From NCBI RefSeq assembly GCF_029051685.1, contig NZ_JAACFT010000012.1, positions 124,001 to 188,000 on the forward strand: 64,000 nucleotides of DNA. The letters are read 5' to 3'. Source of the DNA: Bradyrhizobium sp. CSA207. Lineage in GTDB: Bacteria > Pseudomonadota > Alphaproteobacteria > Rhizobiales > Xanthobacteraceae. Made by a program: the position numbers and the translations under genes. A model generated the notes under the pieces. The model saw only the letters and a list, made by a program, of their open reading frames with translations, was not told the origin of the DNA and did not search any database. This document shows positions 44,645 through 57,335 of the stretch, one piece after another (position 1 is the first letter of the stretch; every line of letters begins with the position of its first letter).

Positions 44645-45991
44645 CTACGGCCGGTTCGGATCGAACCGCTTTTCGAGGCCCGTCCAGCAATCCGCATAGT
44701 CGTCCTGCAACGTGGCGGAATTTGCGGCATGCGCCGTCACGCGCTGCGGATAGCGGGTCTCGAACATGAAGGCCATGGTGCCTGTCAGCTTCACCGGCTT
44801 CAATTCGCCGTTGCTGGCGTGCTCGAAGGCGTCGCGATCGGGGCCGTGCGGCAGCATGCAATTGTGCAGCGACATGCCGCCGGGGACGAAGCCTTGCGGC
44901 TTGGCGTCATAGACGCCGTAGATCAGGCCCATGAACTCGCTCATGATGTTCATGTGGTACCAGGGTGGACGGAAGGTGTTCTCGGCAACCAACCAGCGCT
45001 CGGGGAAAATGACGAAATCGATATTCGCGGTGCCCGCCGTCTCAGACGGCGAGGTCAGCACCGTGAAGATCGAGGGATCCGGATGGTCGAAGCTGATCGC
45101 GCCGACTGGCGAGAACGTGCGCAGATCGTATTTGTAGGGCGCATAATTGCCGTGCCAGGCGACGACATCGATCGGTGAGTGCGGCAGCGTGGTCTTGAAC
45201 AGCGCGCCGCCCCATTTCACGAACAGCTCGGTCGGCGTGTCCTTGTCCTCGTAGCAGGCGACCGGCGTCAGGAAGTCGCGCGCATTGGCGAGGCAGTTGG
45301 CGCCGATCGGCCCGCGTTCCGGCAGCGTGAAGGCGCCACCGTAGTTCTCGCAGAGGTAGCCGCGCGCCGGCCCGTTCGGAATCTCGACGCGGAATTTGAC
45401 GCCGCGCGGGATTACCACGATCTCACCCGGCTCGGCGTCGATGCGGCCGAACTCGGTGACGACGCGCAGATTGCCCTGCTGCAGCACGAACATCAGCTCG
45501 CCGTCGGCATTGTAGAAATGTTGGTCCACCATCGACTTGGTGATGAGATAGACATGCGCGGCCATGCCAGCCTGCGTGTTGACGTCGCCGGCCGTCGTCA
45601 TGGTCTGCACGCCCTGGAGGAAGGTCATGTCCTCCTTCGGGATCGGCGCTGGATCCCAGCGCAGTTGCGCGATCGGCAGATCGTTTTCATGGCATGGTGC
45701 CGAGCGCCACAACCCGGCATCGGCCTTCTCGAAACGTCCCGAATGCTTCACCGACGGGCGGATGCGATACAGCCAAGATCGCTCATTGGTGCCGCGCGGC
45801 GCCGTGAAGGGCGAGCCGGAGAGCTGCTCGGCGTAGAGCCCATAGGCGCAGCGCTGCGGCGAGTTGCGCCCGATCGGCAGCGCGCCCGGCAGCGCCTCCG
45901 TTTCAAAGCTGTTGCCGAAGCCGGACATGTAGCCCGGCGTGACCTGTGCGGTGCTGCGAACGATCTGATCCGGCGAGGTATTGATGTTCAT
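44645..45991 (-). CDS. hmgA: Homogentisate 1,2-dioxygenase
   Basis: HmgA opens the ring of homogentisate to maleylacetoacetate with an iron(II) centre. The 448-residue product has [20 protein letters not shown] at the N-terminus, [11 protein letters not shown] and the C-terminal cupin region with [20 protein letters not shown] (iron-binding His and Glu), then [14 protein letters not shown] with a further His. AGGAGGAGG is the ribosome binding site before ATG 45991. Its start overlaps the stop of the upstream MBL gene by four bases, so the two are translationally coupled. Confidence 0.95.
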
Positions 45992-46950
45992 GATGATCCT
46001 CCTCCTTGCAGGGCGGCCCACATCTCCTGGTCGCGCTTGTCGGTCCAGATCACGGGGTCATCGATCCCCGAGGCCTCGTCGAAGGCGCGCGACACGTTGA
46101 ACGGCAGGCAGTGCTCGTAGATGGCAAAGCTGGAAAATTTTGGATCCATCACCTCGCGCGCCGCCGCCATGGTGTCCTTGAGCGAGCGTCCCTTAGCGAC
46201 GGACATTTCAGCGGCGCCGTAGAGCGTGGTGACGAAGTCGCGCGTCATCGCGATCGCCTCGCGCCCCGTTCCGAGCCCCTTCAGCGCATCGCCGCGGCCG
46301 GGCGCAATCGCCTTCGGATTGAAATTGCGGATTTCGTTCAGTGTCAGCGGCCATTCGCGCAGATGCGCGTCCCCGCAATAGCAGGCCGAGTGATATTCGA
46401 TGAGATCGCCCGAGAACATGACTTCGGCGTCCGGCACCCAGGCAACGATGTCGCCGGAGGTGTGGCCTGCGCCAAGCTGCATCAGCCGCACCTCGCGCTT
46501 GCCGAGATAGATCGACATCTCGCCTTCGAAGGTCAGCGTCGGCCAGGTCAGGCCGGGAATGCTCGCCGCATCCTGGAACAGACGCGGAAAGCGGCCGTAT
46601 TCGGAATCCCAGTCCTGCTGGCCGCGCTCCTCGATCAGACGATAGGTCTCCTGCGAGGCGACGATGCCCTGCGCCTTGTAGGCGGATGCGCCGAGAACGC
46701 GCACGGCGTGATAGTGCGACAGCACGACGTATTTGATCGGCTTATCGGTGACGGCTCGCACGCGCTCGATCACTTTGTTGGCCATTGCGGGCGTTGCCTG
46801 AGCGTCGAACACGAGGCAGCCGTCGTCGCCAACGATGACGGCCGTGTTCGGATCGCCTTCCGCGGTGAAGGCGTAGAGATCGGTGCCGATCTCGGAGAAG
46901 GTGATCTTCTTCTCGGAGAGATCGCCGGTGGATGCGAAGTTCTTCGCCAT
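45988..46950 (-). CDS. MBL-fold protein with an incomplete metal site
   Basis: The 320-residue protein has the metallo-beta-lactamase fold, but the usual HxHxDH reads HYHAVR: His79 and His81 are kept, while Asp and His are Val83 and Arg84. His163 (GAGHTSGD) and Asp182 (MFSGDLIEY) are present; the last His is Arg219 (APGRGDA instead of APGHG). One three-His site is thus intact and the second is lost. Its place between DUF2783 and hmgA suggests a role in homogentisate breakdown. ATG 46950 with AAGGA upstream is preferred to the TTG at 46953. Confidence 0.82.
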
Positions 46951-46972
46951 CAATTTATCCTTTGAGAGCTGG

Positions 46973-47197
46973 CTATTGTTGTTGCTGTTGTTGCTGCTGA
47001 CCGTCGATCATGCGGCGCTTTGCCAGCACGATCGCTTCCCGCAGCAGGTCGATGTCGCCGATGTGGTTGGCGAGGATCAGCACCAGCGCGGCGTCGACAT
47101 CGGCGCTCTGCTCGTCCGTGAGGCCGCGATGAGCCTCGACGATGGCGCGAAAGGCGTCATCGGGCCGTGCGAAATTGGAAGCGGTGGACAACGGCAT
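46973..47197 (-). CDS. DUF2783 small protein with a polyglutamine C-terminus
   Basis: The 74-residue protein has a helical core (DDAFRAIVEAHRGLTDEQSA then LILANHIGDIDLLREAIVLA), as seen in DUF2783 proteins that accompany aromatic-degradation genes. It ends in eight consecutive glutamines encoded by mixed CAG/CAA codons directly before the stop. The function is unknown. It sits 22-23 bases from its neighbours in the hmg operon. A GAGG lies before ATG 47197. Confidence 0.8.
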   Translation of the reverse strand: MPLSTASNFARPDDAFRAIVEAHRGLTDEQSADVDAALVLILANHIGDIDLLREAIVLAKRRMIDGQQQQQQQQ

Positions 47198-47220
47198 GCT
47201 GTAACCTCAATTCAAGCACT

Positions 47221-48861
47221 TTAGTTCAAGCCTTGGGCCCGCGACAGCGCGGCCGCGACGCGAGCGCGTGTCGGGTGGCGGAAGCGTGCCGCGACGTAGC
47301 CATCCGGCCTGAGCAGATAGGTGGAGCCGGGCTCGGCGTCGTAACGCTTTGCGACAAGACTTGCCGGATCGGCCAGACCGCCCGCGCCGATGCGGATGTC
47401 CTTGACACCATCAAGGGGCTCGATCGCTGCTCCATTGCTGAACGACAGCAAGGTGAACTCCGTTCCCCCCTCGCGGAACGCGTCCGTCAGATAGGCCTGC
47501 CCGCCCGCGCCGGCCGCAACGGGCGCATCGAGCATGGAACAACCGGGCTGCGGTCCGCCGCGCCATGCGTCGACGTCGGGCGATGACAGCGGCGTATCGT
47601 AGCTGCATGGCACCGAGAGCCGCCCGCCATTGACCATGCGCTTGCCGAACTCTGTCTCCTTCGCCAGCGACAGCACCGCCTTGCGCAGCCGCGCTTCCTG
47701 CGACGTATTCGGCGCCATGAAATCGGTCGATCGGGTGGACTCGCGAATGTTCTCGTCAGCCGCCATGCTGCGTTCGACATGGTAGCTTTCGAGCAGACGG
47801 GCAGGCGATGCCCCGCGCAACACTCGGTCAAGCTTCCAAGCGAGATTTTCCGCGTCTTCGAGCCCTGAGTTGGCACCGCGCGCGCCGAACGGCGAGACCT
47901 GATGCGCGGAATCGCCAGCGAAGAGCACACGGCCATGGATGAAGCGGTCCATCCGCCGGCACTGGAATTTGTAGAGCGAGATCCACTCGAACTCGAACTT
48001 GTCATGCCCCAGCATGCGTGCGATGCGTGGCCGCACGTTCTCTGGCTTCTTCTCGACGACGGGATCGGCATAACGATTGAGCTGAAGGTCGATCCGCCAG
48101 ATATCGTCGGGCTGTCGGTGCAACAGCGCAGACCGGCCAGCGTGAAACGGCGGATCGAACCAGAACCAGCGCTCGGTCGGAAATTCCGCAGTCATCTTCA
48201 CGTCGGCGATCAGGAACTGGTCCTCGAACACCTGTCCGGCAAAGTCGGCGCCGACCATCTGGCGCAGCGAGGACCGCGCACCGTCGCAGGCAACGACATA
48301 GTGTGCATGCACGCGGTAGGCACCTTCAGGCGTCTCGATCGTCAGCGCAACGGAATCGTTGCGTTGCTCCAGCGCCGTCACCTTGTTACGCCAGCGCAGG
48401 TCGATTTCCGGTAAATCATTGATGCGATCGACCAGATAGGCCTCTGCGTAATATTGCTGGAGGTTGATGAAGGCCGGCCGCTTGTGGCCGTCCTCCGGCA
48501 GCAAGTTGAACTGGTAGAGCTGGGACTCGCCGTGAAAGATCCGGCCGACGCTCCAGACCACGCCCTTGTCGACCATGCGATCGCCGACGCCGAGCCGGTC
48601 CCAATATTCCAGCGACCGCTTCGAGAAGCAGATCGCGCGCGAGCCTTCGCCGATGCGGTCGGCATCGTCCAGAAGCAGGACGCGCTGGCCGCGCTGGGCG
48701 AGATCGATCGCCAGCGACAGCCCGACCGGGCCTGCACCGACAACCACGACCGCGTGCTCGGCCGGGTTCTGGACGGAGCGATCCTGATCGGGGTGACGGC
48801 GATAACCGAACTGGGTCTTGGCCAGTTGGGTGTTGGCCTGTTGGCTCTTGGCCTGCGCCAT
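47221..48861 (-). CDS. FAD-dependent aromatic-ring monooxygenase, first gene of the hmg operon
   Basis: This group A flavoprotein hydroxylase has 546 residues. The FAD motif VVVVGAGPVGLSLAIDLAQRG lies at about residues 37-57, the DG motif in VVACDGARSSLRQ, and the GD motif in VLFAGDSAHQVSPFGARGAN. A C-terminal thioredoxin-like domain follows (TYLLRPDGYVAARFRHP). It is like MhpA-type hydroxylases. In the hmg operon it might hydroxylate a phenylacetate or similar ring to make homogentisate; this is inferred from context. GAGG before ATG 48861 supports the start. Confidence 0.85.
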   Translation of the reverse strand: MAQAKSQQANTQLAKTQFGYRRHPDQDRSVQNPAEHAVVVVGAGPVGLSLAIDLAQRGQRVLLLDDADRIGEGSRAICFSKRSLEYWDRLGVGDRMVDKGVVWSVGRIFHGESQLYQFNLLPEDGHKRPAFINLQQYYAEAYLVDRINDLPEIDLRWRNKVTALEQRNDSVALTIETPEGAYRVHAHYVVACDGARSSLRQMVGADFAGQVFEDQFLIADVKMTAEFPTERWFWFDPPFHAGRSALLHRQPDDIWRIDLQLNRYADPVVEKKPENVRPRIARMLGHDKFEFEWISLYKFQCRRMDRFIHGRVLFAGDSAHQVSPFGARGANSGLEDAENLAWKLDRVLRGASPARLLESYHVERSMAADENIRESTRSTDFMAPNTSQEARLRKAVLSLAKETEFGKRMVNGGRLSVPCSYDTPLSSPDVDAWRGGPQPGCSMLDAPVAAGAGGQAYLTDAFREGGTEFTLLSFSNGAAIEPLDGVKDIRIGAGGLADPASLVAKRYDAEPGSTYLLRPDGYVAARFRHPTRARVAAALSRAQGLN

Positions 48862-48904
48862 GCGCTAAACCTCGGCTCTGGTCAGAAGAGGACTGCTCTG
48901 CTAT

Positions 48905-48924
48905 ATAGTCTCACGTGCAACTAT
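48905..48924. promoter_or_regulatory. Operator-like palindrome between the hmg operon and its MarR regulator
   Basis: The 20-mer ATAGTCTCACGTGCAACTAT has perfect outer half-sites (ATAGT and ACTAT) and a central CACGTG; 16 of 20 bases are symmetric. It is 43 bp before the monooxygenase start and 47 bp before the TTG start of the MarR gene, the position expected of a MarR-family operator serving both promoters. Confidence 0.6.
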
Positions 48925-48971
48925 TTTGGACCGGAGCTAGCCGGCCGTCAACCGGAATTCGGAGCGCATTC

Positions 48972-49547
48972 TTGGCGAGGACATCAGACACTGCGCTGAA
49001 GGCACGAGAAGCGGACGAGGCATCGCCGAAAGCCAAGGCGGGATTCAAGGCGGGGTTCAAGGCGGGGTTCAAGGCGCGGCTCGACCTGTTCAGGTTCGTG
49101 CCGTTCCGCCTGAACCGGCTCGCGGCGGAAGTGAGTTCCGCGCTCGCGGTCGAATATCAGGAGCGTCACGGCCTCGACATTCCAGCCTGGCGCGTGATTG
49201 CCACGCTGGGCTTCCGCAACGACGCCTGTAGCGCGCAATACATCGCGCAATGCACCCGCACGCACAAATCGACCATCAGCCGGGCGGTGACGACGCTGCT
49301 GCATCAGGACCTGATCGAACGCGTCGAGAACGAAGCCGACCGCCGTGAATTCCGCCTGCAACTGACGAAGAAAGGCCGCGCGCTCTACGAGGAGCTGTTT
49401 CCGCAACTGTTGCGGCGGGAGGACGAGATCCTCGCCTGCCTCTCCGTGCAGGAGCGCAAGCAATTGTCGGCCCTGCTGGGCAAGATCGAAGAGAGCCTCG
49501 ACCTGATCCAGACCAGCGAAGAGGCCGACGCCAAGCAGGCGTATTAG
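48972..49547 (+). CDS. MarR-family regulator, divergent from the hmg operon
   Basis: The 191-residue protein has a winged helix core: RLNRLAAEVSSALAVEYQER, then YIAQCTRTHKSTISRAVTTL (recognition helix) and the wing NEADRREFRLQLTKKG. Residues 22-36 or so contain KAGFKAGFKAGFKAR, encoded by a 12-bp tandem repeat. TTG 48972 with GGAG seven bases upstream fits better than GTG 48915, which lies within the operator-like palindrome. It likely represses or activates the hmg operon in response to an aromatic compound. Confidence 0.85.
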   Translation: MARTSDTALKAREADEASPKAKAGFKAGFKAGFKARLDLFRFVPFRLNRLAAEVSSALAVEYQERHGLDIPAWRVIATLGFRNDACSAQYIAQCTRTHKSTISRAVTTLLHQDLIERVENEADRREFRLQLTKKGRALYEELFPQLLRREDEILACLSVQERKQLSALLGKIEESLDLIQTSEEADAKQAY

Positions 49548-49569
49548 TCGTCCCCGCACAACGCGAGCC

Positions 49570-49680
49570 CCTCATCCTGAGGAGCGCGCTCTTGCGCGCG
49601 TCTCGAAGGATGAAGGCCGAGGTGTAGCAGCGGGGCCTTGATGGTTCGAGACGGCGCTTCGCGCCTCCTCACCATGAGGT
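49570..49680. repeat. Palindromic intergenic repeat, family G
   Basis: The arms CCTCATCCTGAGGAGCGCG and CGCGCCTCCTCACCATGAGG bracket inner pairs GTCTCGAAGGATGAAGGCC and GGCCTTGATGGTTCGAGAC. It lies between the convergent MarR gene and an MBL lactonase-like gene. Confidence 0.85.
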
Positions 49681-49689
49681 GCTATACGG

Positions 49690-50496
49690 TCACTTCGCAA
49701 ACGATCTCGACGGCGGCAGATGCAGCGCCCAGGCGTCGACCTTGTCGCTGGCGCGCGGATAGATCTCCGTCACGATCGGATCGTGGCCGGGAATGAACCG
49801 GTCGGGATGGCCGGCGAGGCGCTCGATCGTCTCCCAGCCGACCGCCATGTCGCCGACATTGTAGACGATCGGAAACGGGCTCCGGCGCTGGAGATTGGCG
49901 TAGTAGTGTGCGGCATCGGAGGCGAGCACCACCGGCCCGTGCGCGGTCTCGACCCTGACAACCTGCAGACCGTCCGAATGGCCGCCGACGCGGTGCACGG
50001 TGACGCCGGGCGCGACCTCGCCGTCGCCGGAATAGAACGTGACGCGCTCACCATAGACATGGCGCACCATCTGCGTGACGTGCTCGACCGAGAACGGATG
50101 TCGCAGCAGGCCGTTGCACATGCAGCGCCCCGTCGCGTAAGCCATCTCGCGCTCCTGGAGATGGAAGCGCGCATTCGCAAAGCGATCGAGATTGCCGGCG
50201 TGATCGTAATGCAGATGCGTCACGATAATGTCGCGAATGCCTGACGCCGCGACGCCAAAGCGCTCGAGCGCGTCGACCGGATTGAGCGTCAGCTTGCGCG
50301 CCCGCGCGGCAGCCTCCTCGGCATTGAAGCCGGTATCGACCAGGATATCGCGCCCGCTGCCGCGGATCAGCCAAACGAAGTAGTCGAGATCCTGCGCCGC
50401 GCTGTCATGCGGATCCGGCGCCAGGAAGTTCATGTTCGGGGTGCGCGGCGACATCGTCGCATAGCGCAGTGCGTAGATTTCGTAGGCGTTTCCCAT
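49690..50496 (-). CDS. MBL-fold hydrolase of the N-acyl homoserine lactonase type
   Basis: The 268-residue protein has the complete zinc motif THLHYDHAGNL (His94, His96, Asp98, His99), then GGHSDGLQVVRV with a further His, VVLASDAAHYY with the bridging Asp, and FIPGHDPIV with the last His. This is the AttM/AiiA-like layout of lactonases, but many relatives act on other lactones or esters, so quorum quenching is only possible. ATG 50496 gives the family start MGNAYEIYALRYATM; the frame opens earlier at 50622. Confidence 0.82.
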   Translation of the reverse strand: MGNAYEIYALRYATMSPRTPNMNFLAPDPHDSAAQDLDYFVWLIRGSGRDILVDTGFNAEEAAARARKLTLNPVDALERFGVAASGIRDIIVTHLHYDHAGNLDRFANARFHLQEREMAYATGRCMCNGLLRHPFSVEHVTQMVRHVYGERVTFYSGDGEVAPGVTVHRVGGHSDGLQVVRVETAHGPVVLASDAAHYYANLQRRSPFPIVYNVGDMAVGWETIERLAGHPDRFIPGHDPIVTEIYPRASDKVDAWALHLPPSRSFAK

Positions 50497-50912
50497 GGTT
50501 TTATTTTTGGCTCTGCTTTTTCTGATTGGACCTTCAAGGATCGATCCCAACAAGCCATTGACCGCCGCAAACGTCAAACACCGCTGGTTGCTTAAGGACG
50601 CCGGCCCGCAATGTGAGACCAATCACATTTTTTGTCGCCATCACGGCCCTAAGATGACTGCCCTGACTGCCCTGACATGACTGCCCTGACATGGCCGCCG
50701 CAATGCCCAACCAGAATGCGTCGAGTGCAACCGTGACCGGTCGTTTATTCCCCTCGCAACGCGCCCCTGCGTCGCGGTTAATTGTCGCGATAACGCCGAA
50801 TCTGCAAGCGGTTGACGCCCCCCTTCCCCGGTTTGATAATGCTCATTGCGTAAGTTAAGGTCGCCGCGGCGCAAGCTGGGAACGGCGCCTTTTTGGCTGG
50901 ACCGCGCTGATT
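50497..50912. other. Gap between the lactonase-like and pseudocaspase genes
   Basis: This 416-base divergent region includes three or four imperfect copies of ACTGCCCTGAC at 50657-50690 and a sigma-70-like promoter at 50812-50840. No coding frame is convincing. The T-rich start (TTTTATTTTTGG, 50500-50511 region) lies directly before the lactonase-like gene and may hold its promoter. Confidence 0.5.
50812..50840 (+). promoter_or_regulatory. Sigma-70-type promoter of the pseudocaspase gene
   Basis: TTGACG at 50812-50817 and GATAAT at 50835-50840 are separated by 17 bases, close to consensus. Transcription would begin near 50847, about 65 bases before the ATG at 50913. Confidence 0.6.
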
Positions 50913-52271
50913 ATGAAAATTCGCTTCCTTTTTCTTCTGCCATTGCTCGTTTCGCTCGTCCCGACCGCGCCATCCTGGGCGGCCGGCGATCGCTATGCGC
51001 TGGTCATCGGCAATGCCAAATATCCGGACGCGGACGCCCCGCTCAAGGAACCGCTCAACGACGCGCGCGACATCGCCGACGAGCTCAAGCGCGACGGCTT
51101 TTCGGTCGAAATCGGCGAGAACCTGACCAGCGACGGCATGCGCCGTGCCTTCGAGAAGCTCTACGGCAAGATCAAGCCGGGCTCGGTGGCGCTGGTGTTC
51201 TTCAGCGGCTTTGGCATCCAGTCGGCGCGCCAGAGCTACATGCTTCCGGTCGATGCGCAGATCTGGACCGAATCGGACGTGCGCCGCGACGGTTTTAGCC
51301 TCGAGATGGTCCTTGGCGAGCTCAATACCCGCGGCGCCGGCGTCAAGATCGCGCTGATCGACGCCTCCAGGCGCAATCCGTTCGAGCGCCGGTTCCGCAG
51401 CTTCTCGGCCGGCCTGACGCCGGTCATCGCGCCGAACGGCACGCTCGTGATGTATTCCGCGGCGCTGGCCTCCGTGGTCTCCGATGCCGGCGGCGAACAC
51501 AGCCTGTTCGTCCAGGAATTATTGAAGGAAATCCGCGTCCCCGATCTGATGGCGGAAGAAACGCTGAATCGCACCAAAATGGGCGTCACCCGCGCCTCCC
51601 GCGGCGAGCAGGTGCCGTGGATTTCTTCCTCGCTGGCCGAGGATTTTTCGTTCATTCCGGGGACCAGTGGATCGCGCCCGTCAGCAACGACACCGCCGCC
51701 GCCGCCACCAGTAAAACCGGTCGATCCCGTCACAGCACCGAGCATCGACAGCGGTCCGAGCCAGGCCGCGCTGGCCGACGATCCCACCATCAAGGGCCTG
51801 ACGGCCAAGATCGCCGCCAATCCGGACGACGTGAACGCGCTGTACCGACGGGGTCAGGTCTATGCCAGCAAAGGGGCCTATGGCCTCGCCATCAAGGATT
51901 TCGATGACACGTTGCGGATCAATGCGAAGGACGTCGAGGCGCTGAACAACCGCTGCTGGACCCGCACCGTGGTTGGCGATCTCCAGGGCGCACTGAAAGA
52001 CTGCAACGAGGCGCTGCGGCTGCGGCCCAATTTCGTCGATGCGCTGGACAGCCGGGGTCTGGTGAACCTGAAGTCCGGGGCGGTCAAGAACGCCATCGCC
52101 GATTTCGACGCCGCCCTGAAGGTCAACCCGCGCCTGACCTCCTCGCTCTATGGCCGGGGGATCGCCAAGCAACGCAATGGCTCGGCCCAGGAAGGGGCGC
52201 TCGACGTCGCCAATGCCAAGGCGATGGACCCGAACATCGTCCAGGAATTCGCAAGCTACGGAGTACGTTGA
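50913..52271 (+). CDS. Secreted caspase-fold protein lacking the catalytic dyad, fused to TPR repeats
   Basis: The 452-residue product has a signal peptide (residues 1-23, ending SWA), a caspase-like p20 domain (about 25-235; RYALVIGNAKYPDADAPLKE is typical), a Pro-rich linker (259-275) and at least three TPRs (about 290-440). In active members FSGHG and DACR carry the His-Cys dyad; here they read FSGFG (Phe100) and DASR (Ser152). It is therefore a predicted pseudopeptidase, probably a periplasmic scaffold. A promoter lies upstream and an OmpA-like gene follows 145 bases later. Confidence 0.85.
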   Translation: MKIRFLFLLPLLVSLVPTAPSWAAGDRYALVIGNAKYPDADAPLKEPLNDARDIADELKRDGFSVEIGENLTSDGMRRAFEKLYGKIKPGSVALVFFSGFGIQSARQSYMLPVDAQIWTESDVRRDGFSLEMVLGELNTRGAGVKIALIDASRRNPFERRFRSFSAGLTPVIAPNGTLVMYSAALASVVSDAGGEHSLFVQELLKEIRVPDLMAEETLNRTKMGVTRASRGEQVPWISSSLAEDFSFIPGTSGSRPSATTPPPPPPVKPVDPVTAPSIDSGPSQAALADDPTIKGLTAKIAANPDDVNALYRRGQVYASKGAYGLAIKDFDDTLRINAKDVEALNNRCWTRTVVGDLQGALKDCNEALRLRPNFVDALDSRGLVNLKSGAVKNAIADFDAALKVNPRLTSSLYGRGIAKQRNGSAQEGALDVANAKAMDPNIVQEFASYGVR

Positions 52272-52416: not shown

Positions 52417-53088
52417 ATGAGATTGGCTGTCAAAGGACTTACCGCGATCCTGTCCATCATCACCGTCGGCGCCGCACTGTCGCTGCCCGTGTCACCTGCT
52501 CGCGCGGCCGACGACGGCAACAGCAAGAACGTCACCGAGGACGAGATCGTCCGCGCGCTCGCGCCGCCGGCGAAGAAGCCCTTGACCCGCGGCCTCTCGA
52601 TTGGCCCACAGACCGATGCCGCGCCGAGCGCGACCGAGACCAAGCTGATCCAGTCCGTGCGCGGTCGTTCAACGCGCTCGCTCTCGTCGGCCGAGCGCGA
52701 GGAGATCGCGTCGGCGGCCAAGGATAAGCCGAACATCGACCTTGAGATCACCTTCGACTACAACTCAGCCAATATCAGCCCCAGATCGCTTGCCTCGGTT
52801 CAGGCGCTCGGCCGCGCGCTGACCAGCCCGGACCTGAAGGGCTCGACCTTCGTCGTCGCGGGCCACACTGACGCCGCCGGCGGCGAGGCCTACAATCAAG
52901 ACCTGTCGGAGCGTCGCGCGGATTCGATCAAGCGCTACCTTGTCGACAAGTACAGCATCTCCGCGACCGACCTCGTCACCGTCGGCTATGGCAAGAGCAA
53001 GCTGAAGGACCCGAGCCAGCCGATGGCGGAGGTGAACCGCCGCGTCCAGGTCGTCAACATGGAAAACAAGACCACCGCATCGAAGTGA
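52417..53088 (+). CDS. OmpA-like peptidoglycan-binding protein
   Basis: The 223-residue protein has a signal peptide (MRLAVKG to PARAA, about 29 residues), a linker region of about 80 residues and a C-terminal OmpA domain: LEITFDYNSANISPRSLASV, VVAGHTDAAGGEAYNQDLSE and VNRRVQVVN. The Asp of GHTD and the Arg of NRRV are the residues that hold diaminopimelate in peptidoglycan. There is no barrel or lipobox, so it is a soluble or peripheral periplasmic form. AGGAGGGA before ATG 52417 sets the start. A terminator follows. Confidence 0.88.
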   Translation: MRLAVKGLTAILSIITVGAALSLPVSPARAADDGNSKNVTEDEIVRALAPPAKKPLTRGLSIGPQTDAAPSATETKLIQSVRGRSTRSLSSAEREEIASAAKDKPNIDLEITFDYNSANISPRSLASVQALGRALTSPDLKGSTFVVAGHTDAAGGEAYNQDLSERRADSIKRYLVDKYSISATDLVTVGYGKSKLKDPSQPMAEVNRRVQVVNMENKTTASK

Positions 53089-53145: not shown

Positions 53146-53182
53146 GAAGCGCGTCCCGCAGCCTTGCGGGACGCCGCTTCGT
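53146..53182 (+). terminator. Hairpin terminator after the OmpA-like gene
   Basis: The stem GCGTCCCGCA (53151-53160) with TGCGGGACGC (53165-53174) closes a GCCT loop, extended outward by GAAGC and GCTTC and followed by GTTTC. The T-run is short, so efficiency is uncertain. Confidence 0.65.
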
Positions 53183-53247: not shown

Positions 53248-54177
53248 ATGAAGATCACCGAATATCTCAAGCCTGCCGGAACCGTCGTGTTCATCGTCGT
53301 GCTCGGCTTCGGCTATTATTTGTTCGAGCATCGGCATCGCCCCGAGGCGAAGGAAACGCCGGGCGAGGCGCTCGTCATCGTGACGAAGTCGACCAATGCC
53401 TGCTTCTCGGACCTCGTGCGGGTGACTGGCTTCTTCGTGCCGCGGCGCGAGGCCGTGGTCGTCGCCGAGCAGGAAGGATCCAGGGTTACGGACGTCTTCG
53501 TCACCGAAGGTGCGACCGTGACCGAAAATCAGGAGCTCGCGCGCCTGACCGCGCCGCCGCAGATTCCGGGCCAGCCCCAACGGCCCGGCCCGCAAGGCCC
53601 GATCTCGCTGAAGGCGCCCGCTCCGGGCCTCGTCACCGAAGTCCGCACCATCGTCGGCGCGCCGGCTTCGCCACAGGCTGGTCCGATGTTCCGCATCGCC
53701 GTCAACAACGAGATCGAACTCGACGCCCAGGTTCCGGCCGTGCACATGCCCAAGCTGAGCGCCGGCGCCACCGTTCGCATCAGCCGCGACGACGCGCCCG
53801 ACCTGATCGGGCGGGTCCGGCTGGTTGCTCCCGAAATCGACCGCACCACGCAGCTCGGCCGCGTCCGCATCAGCGTCACCAACAACCCCTCCCTGAAGAT
53901 CGGCACGTTCGCCCGCGCTTCCATCGACGCCAAACGAAGCTGCGGCGTCGCGGTGCCCAAGACCGCGATCGACCATCTCACCGTACAGGTGGTCAAAGGC
54001 AACACGATCGAGACGCGCAAGGTGCGGGTCGGACTGACGTCCGACAGCGCAACGGAAATCCTCGAAGGGGTCGCGGTCGGCGAAATCGTCGTGGCCGACG
54101 CCGGCTCTTCGCTGCATGACGGCGACCAGATCAAAACCATGTTCGCCGATGAACTCGATCGCACGCGGGTACGCTGA
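53248..54177 (+). CDS. RND efflux periplasmic adaptor (HlyD/MFP family)
   Basis: The 309-residue adaptor has an N-terminal membrane anchor (TVVFIVVLGFGYYLFEH, about residues 12-28), a biotinyl-lipoyl-like hairpin (VVVAEQEGSRVTDVFVTEGA and LKAPAPGLVTEVRTIVGAPA) and beta-barrel and membrane-proximal parts. It is shorter than AcrA because the coiled-coil arm is reduced to a Pro-rich loop (QIPGQPQRPGPQGP). ATG 53248 follows AGGA. Its stop overlaps the RND pump start as TGATG, so both are made together. Confidence 0.88.
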   Translation: MKITEYLKPAGTVVFIVVLGFGYYLFEHRHRPEAKETPGEALVIVTKSTNACFSDLVRVTGFFVPRREAVVVAEQEGSRVTDVFVTEGATVTENQELARLTAPPQIPGQPQRPGPQGPISLKAPAPGLVTEVRTIVGAPASPQAGPMFRIAVNNEIELDAQVPAVHMPKLSAGATVRISRDDAPDLIGRVRLVAPEIDRTTQLGRVRISVTNNPSLKIGTFARASIDAKRSCGVAVPKTAIDHLTVQVVKGNTIETRKVRVGLTSDSATEILEGVAVGEIVVADAGSSLHDGDQIKTMFADELDRTRVR

Positions 54178-57100
54178 TGGCTCTCAATATCTCGGCTTGG
54201 TCGATCCGCAATCCGCTGCCGTCGGTCGTCTTTTCGATCATCCTGCTGATCCTCGGCTGGGTCTCCTTCACCAAGCTCGCGGTGACGCGGCTGCCCTCGG
54301 CCGACATTCCCGTGATCTCGGTGGCGGTGTCGCAGTTCGGCGCCGCCCCCGCCGAACTCGAATCACAGGTCACCAAGACGGTTGAAGACGCGGTCTCCGG
54401 CGTCGAGGGCGTGCGGCACATCGCATCGTCGATCACCGACGGGCTGTCGGTCACGACCATTCAGTTTGCTCTGGAGACCAACACCGACCGCGCGCTCAAC
54501 GACGTCAAGGACGCGGTGACGCGCGTACGCTCGAACCTGCCGCAAAACGTCACCGAACCGCTGATCCAGCGCGTCGACGTCATCGGCCTGCCGATCGTCA
54601 CCTATGCCGCGATATCGCCCGGCAAGACGCCGGAGCAGCTCTCCTATTTCGTCGACGATGTGGTCAAGCGCGCACTCCAGGGCGTGCGCGGCGTCGCACA
54701 GGTCGAGCGCATCGGCGGTGTCGAGCGCGAGATCCTGGTTTCGCTCGATCCCGATCGCATGCAGGCAATGGGGCTCACCGCCGTCAATGTCAGCCAGAGC
54801 CTGCGCGGCACCAATGTCGACGTCGCCGGTGGACGCGCCGAGATCGGCAAGAACGACCAGGCGATTCGCACGCTGGCGGGCGCCAAGACGCTCGGCGACC
54901 TGACCGGCACCATGATCCCGCTGTTCGGCGGCGGCGAGGTCCGGCTCGACGATCTCGGCACCGTCACCGATACCATCGCCGACCGCCGCACCTTCGCCCG
55001 CTTCAACGGCGAGCCGGTGGTCGCGCTCGGCATCAAGCGTTCCAAGGGGGCCAGCGACGTCGTGGTCGCGGCCGCGGTGCAGAAGCGCATCGACGCGCTC
55101 AAGGCGTCCTATCCCGACGTCGACCTCAAGCTGATCGACACCTCCGTCGAATACACCAAGGGCAATTATACGGCAGCGATCTCGACCTTGTTCGAAGGCG
55201 CCATCCTCGCCGTCGTGATCGTGCTGTTGTTCCTGCGCGATGTGCGCGCCACCATCATCGCCGCGATCTCGTTGCCGCTGTCGATCTTCCCGGCGTTCTG
55301 GGCGATGGATATCCTCGGCTTCTCGCTCAACCTCGTCAGCTTCCTCGCCATCACGCTGTCGACGGGCATTCTGGTCGACGACGCCATCGTCGAGATCGAG
55401 AACATCGTGCGGCACATGAACATGGGCAAGTCGCCCTATCGTGCCGCGCTCGAAGCCGCCGACGAGATCGGGCTCGCTGTGATCGCAATCTCGCTCACGA
55501 TCATCGCGATCTTCGCGCCCGCCAGCTTCATGTCGGGCATCGCCGGACAGTTCTTCAAGCAGTTCGGCATCACCGTCTCGGTGCAGGTGTTCTTCTCGCT
55601 GCTCGCGGCGCGCTTCGTGACGCCGATGCTGGCGGCCTATTTCCTCAAGCACTCAAATCACCAGGAGCCGCCGCCGGGCCTGGTGCTGCGCAACTACCAC
55701 AAGATCGTGAAATGGTCGGTGAAGCATTATTTCATCACCGTGCTGATCGGCTTCGGCGTGTTCGCCGCCTCGATCTGGAGCATCACGCTGCTGCCGCAGG
55801 GCTTCCTGCCCGCGCAGGACAGCGCGCGCTCGCTGCTCGCGATCGAGTTGCCCCCCGGCACCCAGCTCTCCTATACCGAGAAGGTGACCGAGGACATCGT
55901 CGCGCGCCTGCGCAAGCGCTCCGAGGTGAAGAGCATCTTCGTCGACGGCGGCCGGGTCCCGCCGGGGACGCAGGAAGTGCGACGTGCGGCCCTGATCATC
56001 AACTACACACCCAAGGACGATCGCGACATCACCCAGCGCGAGCTCGAGTTCTCGATCAGCCAGGAACTGGAGAACATTCCCGACATCCGTTTCTGGTTTC
56101 TCGACGAGAACGGCCTGCGCGCGATCTCCCTGGTCGTGACTGGCGTCGACGCCAACATCGTCAACAACGTCGCGAGCGAGCTTGCGACGCAGATGAAGCG
56201 GATTCCGACCATCTCCAATGTGATCTCGGAAACCGCGCTGGAACGCCCCGAACTGCGCATCGAGCCGCGGGCCGATCTCGCCGCGCGGCTGGGCGTCTCG
56301 ACCGAAAGCCTGTCGCAGACCATCCGTGTCGCGACCATCGGCGATGTCGGTCCCGCGCTTGCCAAGTTCGACGTCGGCGACCGCCTGGTGCCGATCCGCG
56401 TGCAGCTCGAGGATGCCGCCCGCGGCAATCTCAGAACGCTCGAGCAGTTGCGCGTGCCGCTCGGCGAACACGGCGAGAAGGGCGGCGTGCCACTCTCGGT
56501 CATCGCCGACGTCAAGCTCGACCAGGGCCCGACCAGCATCAATCGCTACGATCGCGAGCGGCAGGCCACCGTCGCCGCCGACCTCGTCGGCTCCGCGGCG
56601 CTCGGCGACGCAACCAAGAAAATCTCCGACCTGCCGGTGATGAAGACCTTGCCCAAGGGCGTGAAGGTCAGCCCCTCAGGCGATGCCGAAAGCCTCAACG
56701 AACTCTCGGACGGCTTTGCCACCGCGATCACTGCGGGCCTGATGATGGTCTATGCGGTGCTGGTACTCTTGTTTGGCACCTTCCTGCAGCCGATCACCAT
56801 CCTGTTCTCGCTGCCGCTGTCGATCGGCGGCGCCATCGCAGCCCTGCTCATCACCGGCAAGCAGCTCACCACGCCGGTCTGGATCGGCATCCTGATGCTG
56901 ATGGGCATCGTCACCAAGAACGCGATCATGCTGGTGGAGTTCGCGATCGAAGCGATCCACGCCGGCAAGCCGCGTGAAGAAGCGATGATCGACGCCGGCA
57001 TGAAACGCGCCCGCCCGATCGTGATGACCACGATCGCGATGGCCGCAGGCATGATGCCGAGCGCGCTCGCAGTCGGCGCCGGCGGCGAGTTCCGCTCGCC

Positions 57101-57335
57101 AATGGCGCTCGCGGTGATCGGCGGCCTGATCTTCTCGACCATACTGTCACTGGTGTTCGTGCCGGCGATGTTCATGGTGATGGACGATCTCGGCGCCCTG
57201 ATCTGGCGCTTCGGCAAGCGACTGATCGTGCACAGCGAGGACGCCGAGGCCGACGATCACCACGCGGCTCCGCCAGCCGGCGCAAAGCCCGCGGCAGCGG
57301 CGCCGAAGAGCATCGCGCACCCTGCGGCGGAGTAG
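54177..57335 (+). CDS. RND-family efflux pump (AcrB/MexB type)
   Basis: The 1052-residue inner-membrane proton-driven exporter has twelve membrane segments in two halves, each followed by a large periplasmic loop. It starts SIRNPLPSVVFSIILLILGW; helix 4 carries the proton-relay Asp pair in GILVDDAIVEIENIV (about residues 400-401), and Lys in MGIVTKNAIMLVEF (about 913) is the helix 10 partner. The C-terminus is Ala/Pro-rich. No outer-membrane TolC-type gene follows, so it would use one encoded elsewhere. Substrates are unknown. Confidence 0.94.
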   Translation: MALNISAWSIRNPLPSVVFSIILLILGWVSFTKLAVTRLPSADIPVISVAVSQFGAAPAELESQVTKTVEDAVSGVEGVRHIASSITDGLSVTTIQFALETNTDRALNDVKDAVTRVRSNLPQNVTEPLIQRVDVIGLPIVTYAAISPGKTPEQLSYFVDDVVKRALQGVRGVAQVERIGGVEREILVSLDPDRMQAMGLTAVNVSQSLRGTNVDVAGGRAEIGKNDQAIRTLAGAKTLGDLTGTMIPLFGGGEVRLDDLGTVTDTIADRRTFARFNGEPVVALGIKRSKGASDVVVAAAVQKRIDALKASYPDVDLKLIDTSVEYTKGNYTAAISTLFEGAILAVVIVLLFLRDVRATIIAAISLPLSIFPAFWAMDILGFSLNLVSFLAITLSTGILVDDAIVEIENIVRHMNMGKSPYRAALEAADEIGLAVIAISLTIIAIFAPASFMSGIAGQFFKQFGITVSVQVFFSLLAARFVTPMLAAYFLKHSNHQEPPPGLVLRNYHKIVKWSVKHYFITVLIGFGVFAASIWSITLLPQGFLPAQDSARSLLAIELPPGTQLSYTEKVTEDIVARLRKRSEVKSIFVDGGRVPPGTQEVRRAALIINYTPKDDRDITQRELEFSISQELENIPDIRFWFLDENGLRAISLVVTGVDANIVNNVASELATQMKRIPTISNVISETALERPELRIEPRADLAARLGVSTESLSQTIRVATIGDVGPALAKFDVGDRLVPIRVQLEDAARGNLRTLEQLRVPLGEHGEKGGVPLSVIADVKLDQGPTSINRYDRERQATVAADLVGSAALGDATKKISDLPVMKTLPKGVKVSPSGDAESLNELSDGFATAITAGLMMVYAVLVLLFGTFLQPITILFSLPLSIGGAIAALLITGKQLTTPVWIGILMLMGIVTKNAIMLVEFAIEAIHAGKPREEAMIDAGMKRARPIVMTTIAMAAGMMPSALAVGAGGEFRSPMALAVIGGLIFSTILSLVFVPAMFMVMDDLGALIWRFGKRLIVHSEDAEADDHHAAPPAGAKPAAAAPKSIAHPAAE

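Follow-up and report, generated by a model that had tools for sequence, protein, structure and literature searches.

The window analysed here is a stretch of 64,000 nucleotides from Bradyrhizobium sp. CSA207, and at 50913–52271 it carries the gene of a caspase-like protein in which neither residue of the catalytic dyad is present. Genes for an OmpA-like protein, a periplasmic adaptor and an RND pump follow on the same strand. The features of this locus are as follows.

50812–50840, + strand: sigma-70-like promoter TTGACG-17-GATAAT, 10/12 matches, about 70 bp 5' of the start codon
50913–52271, + strand: pseudo-orthocaspase, 452 aa, with signal peptide, p20/caspase domain, Pro-rich linker and TPRs (open reading frame and Pfam)
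50991–51647, + strand: caspase (Peptidase_C14) domain, residues 27–245 (Pfam, AlphaFold2 model, MALT1 match)
51210–51212, + strand: Phe100 codon TTT at the catalytic His position, aligned to the His of the MALT1 GHG motif
51264–51266, + strand: Trp118 codon; Trp in 50/50 pseudo-domains, in at most 1/30 tree-set His-Cys (HC) caspases, and in 0/18 distant HC caspases from other orders
51366–51368, + strand: Ser152 codon TCC at the catalytic Cys position, aligned to the Cys of the MALT1 DMCR motif
51372–51374, + strand: Arg154 codon; Arg in 50/50 pseudo-domains, 0/30 tree-set HC and 0/18 distant HC caspases
51780–52262, + strand: TPR region, about residues 290–450 (TPR_1, E 2.1e-16)
52417–53088, + strand: OmpA-like protein, 223 aa, GHTD...LSxRRA motif (Pfam OmpA, E 2.9e-21; signal peptide by eye)
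53151–53174, + strand: weak terminator-like hairpin in the OmpA–adaptor intergenic region
53248–54177, + strand: RND-type periplasmic adaptor (MFP), 309 aa, the alpha-hairpin apparently missing (Pfam; 20-residue lipoyl spacer)
54177–57335, + strand: RND pump, 1052 aa (ACR_tran, E 5.4e-228; VDDAI, TKNAI and TTIAM motifs)

The signal peptide, Pro-rich linker and TPRs that the preliminary description gave to the pseudocaspase are borne out, the TPRs by Pfam and the signal peptide by eye, as is a promoter of its own at 50812–50840. The N-terminus, MKIRFLFLLPLLVSLVPTAPSWAA, reads by eye as a Sec-type signal peptide in which a hydrophobic stretch is followed by APSWAA-GD, with no lipobox to be seen by the same reading, and a periplasmic location would fit it. 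The TPR region is helical in the full-length model, with ten-residue pLDDT means mostly between 76 and 93. Two promoter-like sites occur in a 2.9-kb region against a mean of 0.5 in shuffles, and TTGAC-N17-19-KATAAT recurs upstream of the gene in 70 of 80 titled loci, which are close relatives set against no control set.

The OmpA-type gene expected next to the pseudocaspase is present and starts 145 bp 3' of it. The hairpin beyond it is weak because terminator-like sites are no more frequent than in shuffled sequence (3 found, shuffle mean 3.1). The adaptor and pump genes (53248–57335) had been overlooked earlier. The pump combines its ACR_tran match with VDDAI, TKNAI and TTIAM, which we take to be the proton-relay motifs of an RND pump. 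In the adaptor the two lipoyl half-motifs are separated by only 20 residues (8–22 across the 21 adaptors compared), a spacing that, as read from sequence, would leave no alpha-hairpin to reach an outer-membrane channel. BesA, the adaptor of a Borrelia RND pump (PMC3807786), is likewise described, in the part of that paper available, as having no alpha-hairpin; the likeness is one of description, and the genes of the window type differ in being linked to OmpA-like and pseudocaspase genes. By eye, the genes 3' of the pump resemble a Crp-type regulator and an AsmA-like protein. On the 5' side, at 44645–50622, lie genes that read as encoding a homogentisate dioxygenase-like protein, two metallo-hydrolases, an FAD hydroxylase and a MarR regulator. 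Together they may form an aromatic-compound degradation set, and 15 of 16 loci compared (15 from Bradyrhizobium and one from genus g3) keep all of these gene types.

Caspase fold and catalytic positions

The caspase domain matches Pfam PF00656 Peptidase_C14 with E 4.7e-36 (125.1 bits against a cut-off of 21.4), and its nearest solved relative by sequence is the human paracaspase MALT1 (profile alignment, E 2e-17). The His of GHG and the Cys of DMCR are presumably the catalytic residues of MALT1. Codons and profile alignment agree with the earlier statement that Phe100 and Ser152 stand at the His and Cys positions, so that F100 and S152 replace the His-Cys pair of an active orthocaspase. The fold motifs around these positions were also said to be intact in spite of this loss, and the predicted structure upholds the point: an AlphaFold2 model of the domain alone, built on diverse sequences, has a pLDDT of 88.8 and superimposes best on MALT1 (Z 28.5, rmsd 2.6 over 212 residues), which is also its best Foldseek match (E 8.7e-17). 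The model matches 3h11_B, one chain of the caspase-8:c-FLIP-L complex, with Z 22.3. As to p10, a domain that the FS class of pseudo-orthocaspases described below is said to lack, Pfam does not report it as a separate family, but the domain model aligns along MALT1 residues 340–563. In the full-length model, based on 41 close orthologues, the caspase domain comes out with low confidence, and the domain-only model stands for it here.

The domain contains no Cys and a single His, H196, in a column that is His in just 24 of 50 pseudo-domains, so that no alternative dyad is visible. Given the missing dyad, the lack of Cys and the unconserved His, a cysteine protease of the usual type is excluded by sequence. 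The proposal that the protein is non-proteolytic is therefore well supported at this level, as the dyad is missing in every orthologue read and no other conserved His/Cys pair takes its place.

The pseudo-domains share residues of their own. Trp118 and Arg154 occur in all 50 and are absent or nearly so from HC caspases, which argues that residues were gained and kept besides the loss of the dyad; the column of Arg154 is Asp or Asn in 30/30 tree-set and 18/18 distant HC caspases. R106 is present in 45 of 50 pseudo-domains. E158, R160 and F161 were also considered as specific to the pseudo clade and rejected, since many of the 18 distant HC caspases carry them, so that only R106, W118 and R154 are called characteristic, as judged from these alignments. 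Asp150 is common to 50/50 pseudo-domains and 30/30 HC domains.

Proteins of this kind have been described before. Klemencic et al. (2019, PMC6426788) report, in the text available, that pseudo-orthocaspases of the FS type (Phe-Ser in p20) from Rhizobiales consistently carry TPRs, and the window protein belongs to this class by its dyad, by TPRs C-terminal to p20 and by its order of bacteria. The protein class is therefore not new, and its novelty is lower than was first held; what may be new is the conserved locus around it. The terms operon, neighbor, OmpA, efflux, genomic context and synteny do not appear in the main text of PMC6426788. Asplund-Samuelsson et al. (2012, PMC3501461) found dyad loss to be frequent in Alphaproteobacteria, OmpA domains in 14 metacaspase operons and more than one metacaspase in 20 operons; the main text mentions neither RND nor efflux, and in the part available the OmpA link is not connected with a missing dyad. 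A literature search did not find the locus of pseudocaspase, OmpA, hairpin-less adaptor and RND in print, although Table S2 of PMC3501461, on operons, may hold it, nor did it find a pairing of dead and live caspases for this Rhizobiales class.

Origin and selection of the dyad-less clade

The pseudocaspase is old and well kept. Among titled loci, the best 80 of 555 found were compared; nearly all are from Bradyrhizobium, with one titled Frankia and a few MAGs with broader titles, and the closest is from B. hipponense (100% identity over the domain). The residues at the dyad positions are FS in 66 and YS in 14, with HC in none. A second census took one locus per genome from every non-Bradyrhizobium genome with a long-frame match, giving 48 loci that represent 12 further genera of the family (G544 qualified through a long-frame match, while G546 and G579, which showed the short type only, are left out), and here the dyad positions read FS in 29, YS in 14, YA in 4, VS in one and HC in none. 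Relatives that keep the dyad, which would mark the loss as a local mutation, were sought and are absent from 80/80 titled and 48/48 other-genera loci. A local mutation is thus rejected for the genus and for the 12 others.

The dyad-less clade has one origin. With dyad columns masked, 50 pseudo-domains form a single clade against 30 HC domains with support of 100/100, in an 80-row tree that omits three long-branch rows, L005 (YA), L041 and L097 (both HC); when these are included in a quick tree of 83 rows the 50-row clade is retained at SH-aLRT 98. Many near-identical loci were left out of both trees by choice. The gene is under purifying selection: from pairs with dS of 0.2–1.2 only, the mean dN/dS is 0.106 across 78 loci in the p20/caspase domain and 0.125 across 64 loci in the TPRs. 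It is present in 21 of 21 Bradyrhizobium genomes listed. At the level of the class, 16 of 289 genomes match at E <= 1e-50, and all 18 loci read outside the window's genome are HC, so that this sample showed no member of the pseudo clade beyond the order.

FS and YS alternate inside one TPR-bearing orthologue group, L013 and L017 being TPR-bearing YS members. The statement in PMC6426788, in the text available, that architecture is specific to each dyad type therefore needs loosening, at least as far as these sequences go.

Nine of the 80 titled contigs (L135, L153, L158, L163, L174, L181, L202, L203 and L213) end inside the pseudocaspase gene near the Pro-rich linker, probably an assembly problem caused by repeated proline codons. 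L175 (JAUEPE010000084.1), titled Frankia sp. RB7, is a Bradyrhizobium-like locus with 93% p20 identity and looks like a wrong label or a mixed assembly.

Conserved neighbours and related caspases

Gene order is conserved across genera and into a second family. Where the titled loci, drawn from the best 80 of 555, have enough sequence, the downstream OmpA gene is found in 69/69, the adaptor in 69/69 and the RND pump in 62/62, with a divergent metallo-hydrolase upstream in 77/78. A further 16 loci, 15 from Bradyrhizobium and one from g3, have all three genes in every case. In this set the domain DNA of two of the 15 recurs among the titled loci, and the g3 locus was counted in the 48-locus census too. 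Outside Bradyrhizobium, the 48 census loci carry OmpA on the same strand in 44, the adaptor in 41 and the pump in 40. The eight with RND out of reach are four from g123, one each from g125, g126 and g150, and L277, which a contig end cuts before the pump. In the second family (f36, genus g72) the order is the same in 3/3 loci read, at 45–47% p20 identity; three other f36 genomes (G229, G263 and G292) have no match at E <= 1e-50.

An adaptor homologue was found in 69 of 71 genomes of the family with a pseudo-p20 and in none of 125 without it. The cut was set after a gap had been seen between the 69 (best E 2.2e-59 or better) and all others (3.9e-31 or worse); 24 genomes whose adaptor matches are weak and mostly partial count as without, and the two surveys are taken as covering the same 196 genomes from their equal handles and counts. 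These genomes are related, so the contrast does not amount to 196 independent observations.

The window's genome contains 12 caspase domains, nine with His-Cys and three without: the window protein (FS), a YS copy 26 kb away and a YA copy. The YA copy, L005 (G000:C75:105389-106051), has Tyr-Ala for His-Cys and a very long Pro-rich tail; in the quick tree a weakly supported branch places it on the HC side, so that its dyad was probably lost separately. Among the intact caspases, L039 976–4801 holds a tandem of two similar HC copies. The pseudocaspases were split by eye, from identity and frame length, into the window type A (61), divergent A (7) and type C (67). Type C proteins have about 290 residues, no TPR and mostly YS, and by eye their N-terminus likely carries a membrane anchor. 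They co-occur with type A in 60 of 61 genomes and with divergent A in 4 of 7, being missing from the type-A genome G636 and from the divergent-A genomes G490, G518 and G556. In 8 of 9 loci type C has a related adaptor next to it; in L082 the distance is about 2.3 kb, with a gene in between. In g3, 8 of 12 loci show a single cluster that unites the two pseudocaspases, the two adaptors, OmpA and the pump. L133 (G546:C1:2627500-2642500; genus g133) keeps the pump, adaptor and type C, and its genome has no type A match at E <= 1e-45. L215 (IMGVR_UViG_2820115951_000001), filed as viral, holds a type C pseudocaspase among bacterial neighbours and is therefore probably bacterial DNA.

Many Bradyrhizobium genomes also carry type B (L088, L089 and L036), a second TPR-bearing FS pseudocaspase about 55–62% identical. 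It does not stand beside an RND gene in either locus read (0/2: L088 and L089), where it sits between genes that by eye are enoyl-CoA-hydratase-like and molybdopterin-oxidoreductase-like.

In 14 of the 48 census loci, from seven genera, an intact His-Cys caspase lies near the pseudocaspase (7.5 kb before to 8.5 kb after being searched), 13 of them on the same strand, and nine loci from four genera (g120, g138, g148 and g151) share the order OmpA, HC caspase, pseudocaspase, OmpA, adaptor, RND. A further eight loci (six of g133, two of g148) keep the first OmpA and have no HC caspase, a pattern that reads as loss of the HC gene but may instead reflect a gain elsewhere. These HC neighbours stem from at least two HC lineages, since in the quick tree the one at L128 groups with L003 of the window's genome and others fall near its L007, L039 and L040. 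No HC neighbour was seen in 95 Bradyrhizobium loci, of which at least two are counted twice and some are shortened by contig ends. An autotransporter-like outer-membrane protein is encoded near the cluster of HC caspase and pseudocaspase in L121 (1090–2958, by Pfam Autotransporter) and, from similarity of the start, in L122, L123, L129 and L132.

The suggestion of a scaffold acting with the OmpA-like protein thus holds in part. The gene link is conserved (69/69 titled loci with enough sequence, 44/48 elsewhere in the family on the same strand), and a physical interaction between the two proteins is what we infer; the list of partners was too short, since it must also take in the adaptor, the pump and a second pseudocaspase, as well as the intact caspase present in some genera.

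Proposed function of the pseudocaspase at the pump locus

The reading we prefer, and to which we would give an even chance, is that the pseudocaspase serves the pump locus as a non-proteolytic envelope scaffold or regulatory subunit. A catalytically dead orthocaspase would be exported to the periplasm, where caspase fold and TPRs together could provide a protein-binding platform to help in the assembly or regulation of an envelope complex whose parts the neighbouring genes encode. Its members would be the OmpA-like protein, holding peptidoglycan, the short adaptor, in which a hairpin reaching TolC and hence the usual bridge to the outer-membrane channel appear to be missing, and the RND pump, driven by protons. 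In favour of such a scaffold are the absence of the dyad from all titled (best 80 of 555) and other-genera loci, the single clade with its low dN/dS in both p20 and TPRs, the order of OmpA, adaptor and RND kept within and outside the genus and in three loci of a second family, and the adaptor homologue and type C that track the pseudocaspase. Against this, the genomes are related and the conserved order and co-occurrence may therefore partly be inheritance, the hairpin between OmpA and adaptor means that the pump may be a separate transcript, 8 of 48 loci are without RND within reach, type B is not beside RND, and G229, G263 and G292 have no match.

Because some relatives have an intact caspase at the locus, the main rival is that the pseudocaspase controls an active caspase, a reading we consider somewhat unlikely. 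Here the pseudocaspase would pair with an active orthocaspase in the periplasm and restrain, activate or feed it, and in Bradyrhizobium the partner would be an intact caspase encoded elsewhere in the genome, of which the window's genome keeps nine. The human pseudo-caspase c-FLIP-L, which, in the part of PMC7586951 available, likewise has an inactive caspase fold and works with an active caspase, offers an analogy with its partner caspase-8, as does a trypanosome pseudo-metacaspase; the window protein differs in being bacterial and in having a signal peptide and TPRs. The HC neighbours in 14 loci of seven genera, 13 of them on the same strand, their at least two lineages and the shared nine-locus order fit such control, and in some relatives the pseudocaspase may regulate its active neighbour. 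The 95 Bradyrhizobium loci and 34 of the 48 others have no such neighbour, however, and Klemencic et al. (PMC6426788), in the text available, argue against a role of this kind.

We also consider it unlikely that dead and live caspases cooperate with the pump in a broader envelope system. The TPR-bearing type A and the membrane-anchored type C, each with its hairpin-less adaptor and together with OmpA proteins, would hold and gate a live caspase, or its substrate, at the cell wall as a bacterial counterpart of pseudo-caspase control. The intact caspase in the same cluster in several genera would be the live partner, which Bradyrhizobium would have lost from the locus. If dead and live caspases of one cluster do interact, pseudo-caspase control would exist in bacteria.

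It is quite improbable that the protein instead binds basic peptides or protein ends, its substrate pocket capturing a ligand uncut and so sensing or sequestering it. Asp150, invariant in pseudo- and HC domains alike, and Trp118 and Arg154, invariant in the pseudo-domains, would suit such a pocket, and cyanobacterial pseudo-orthocaspases are reported in the accessible text of PMC6426788 to keep an acidic pocket.

A role in photosynthesis, which the same text proposes for bacterial pseudo-orthocaspases generally, is very improbable here: the distribution of Photo_RC in Bradyrhizobium, just 20 of 190 genomes and not found in the window's own, does not support it. The pseudocaspase gene itself occurs in each Bradyrhizobium genome listed, next to pump and wall genes. 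The conserved locus thus offers this Rhizobiales class a setting other than photosynthesis, concrete and testable, made up of cell wall, adaptor, pump and sometimes active caspase. The chance that the gene is decaying and on its way out is next to nil, since, although both catalytic residues are gone and the L028 frame stops where the TPR part begins, a dN/dS of about 0.1, a promoter-like site that is kept and presence in each genus genome listed speak against it, and purifying selection across 78 loci rejects a pseudogene.
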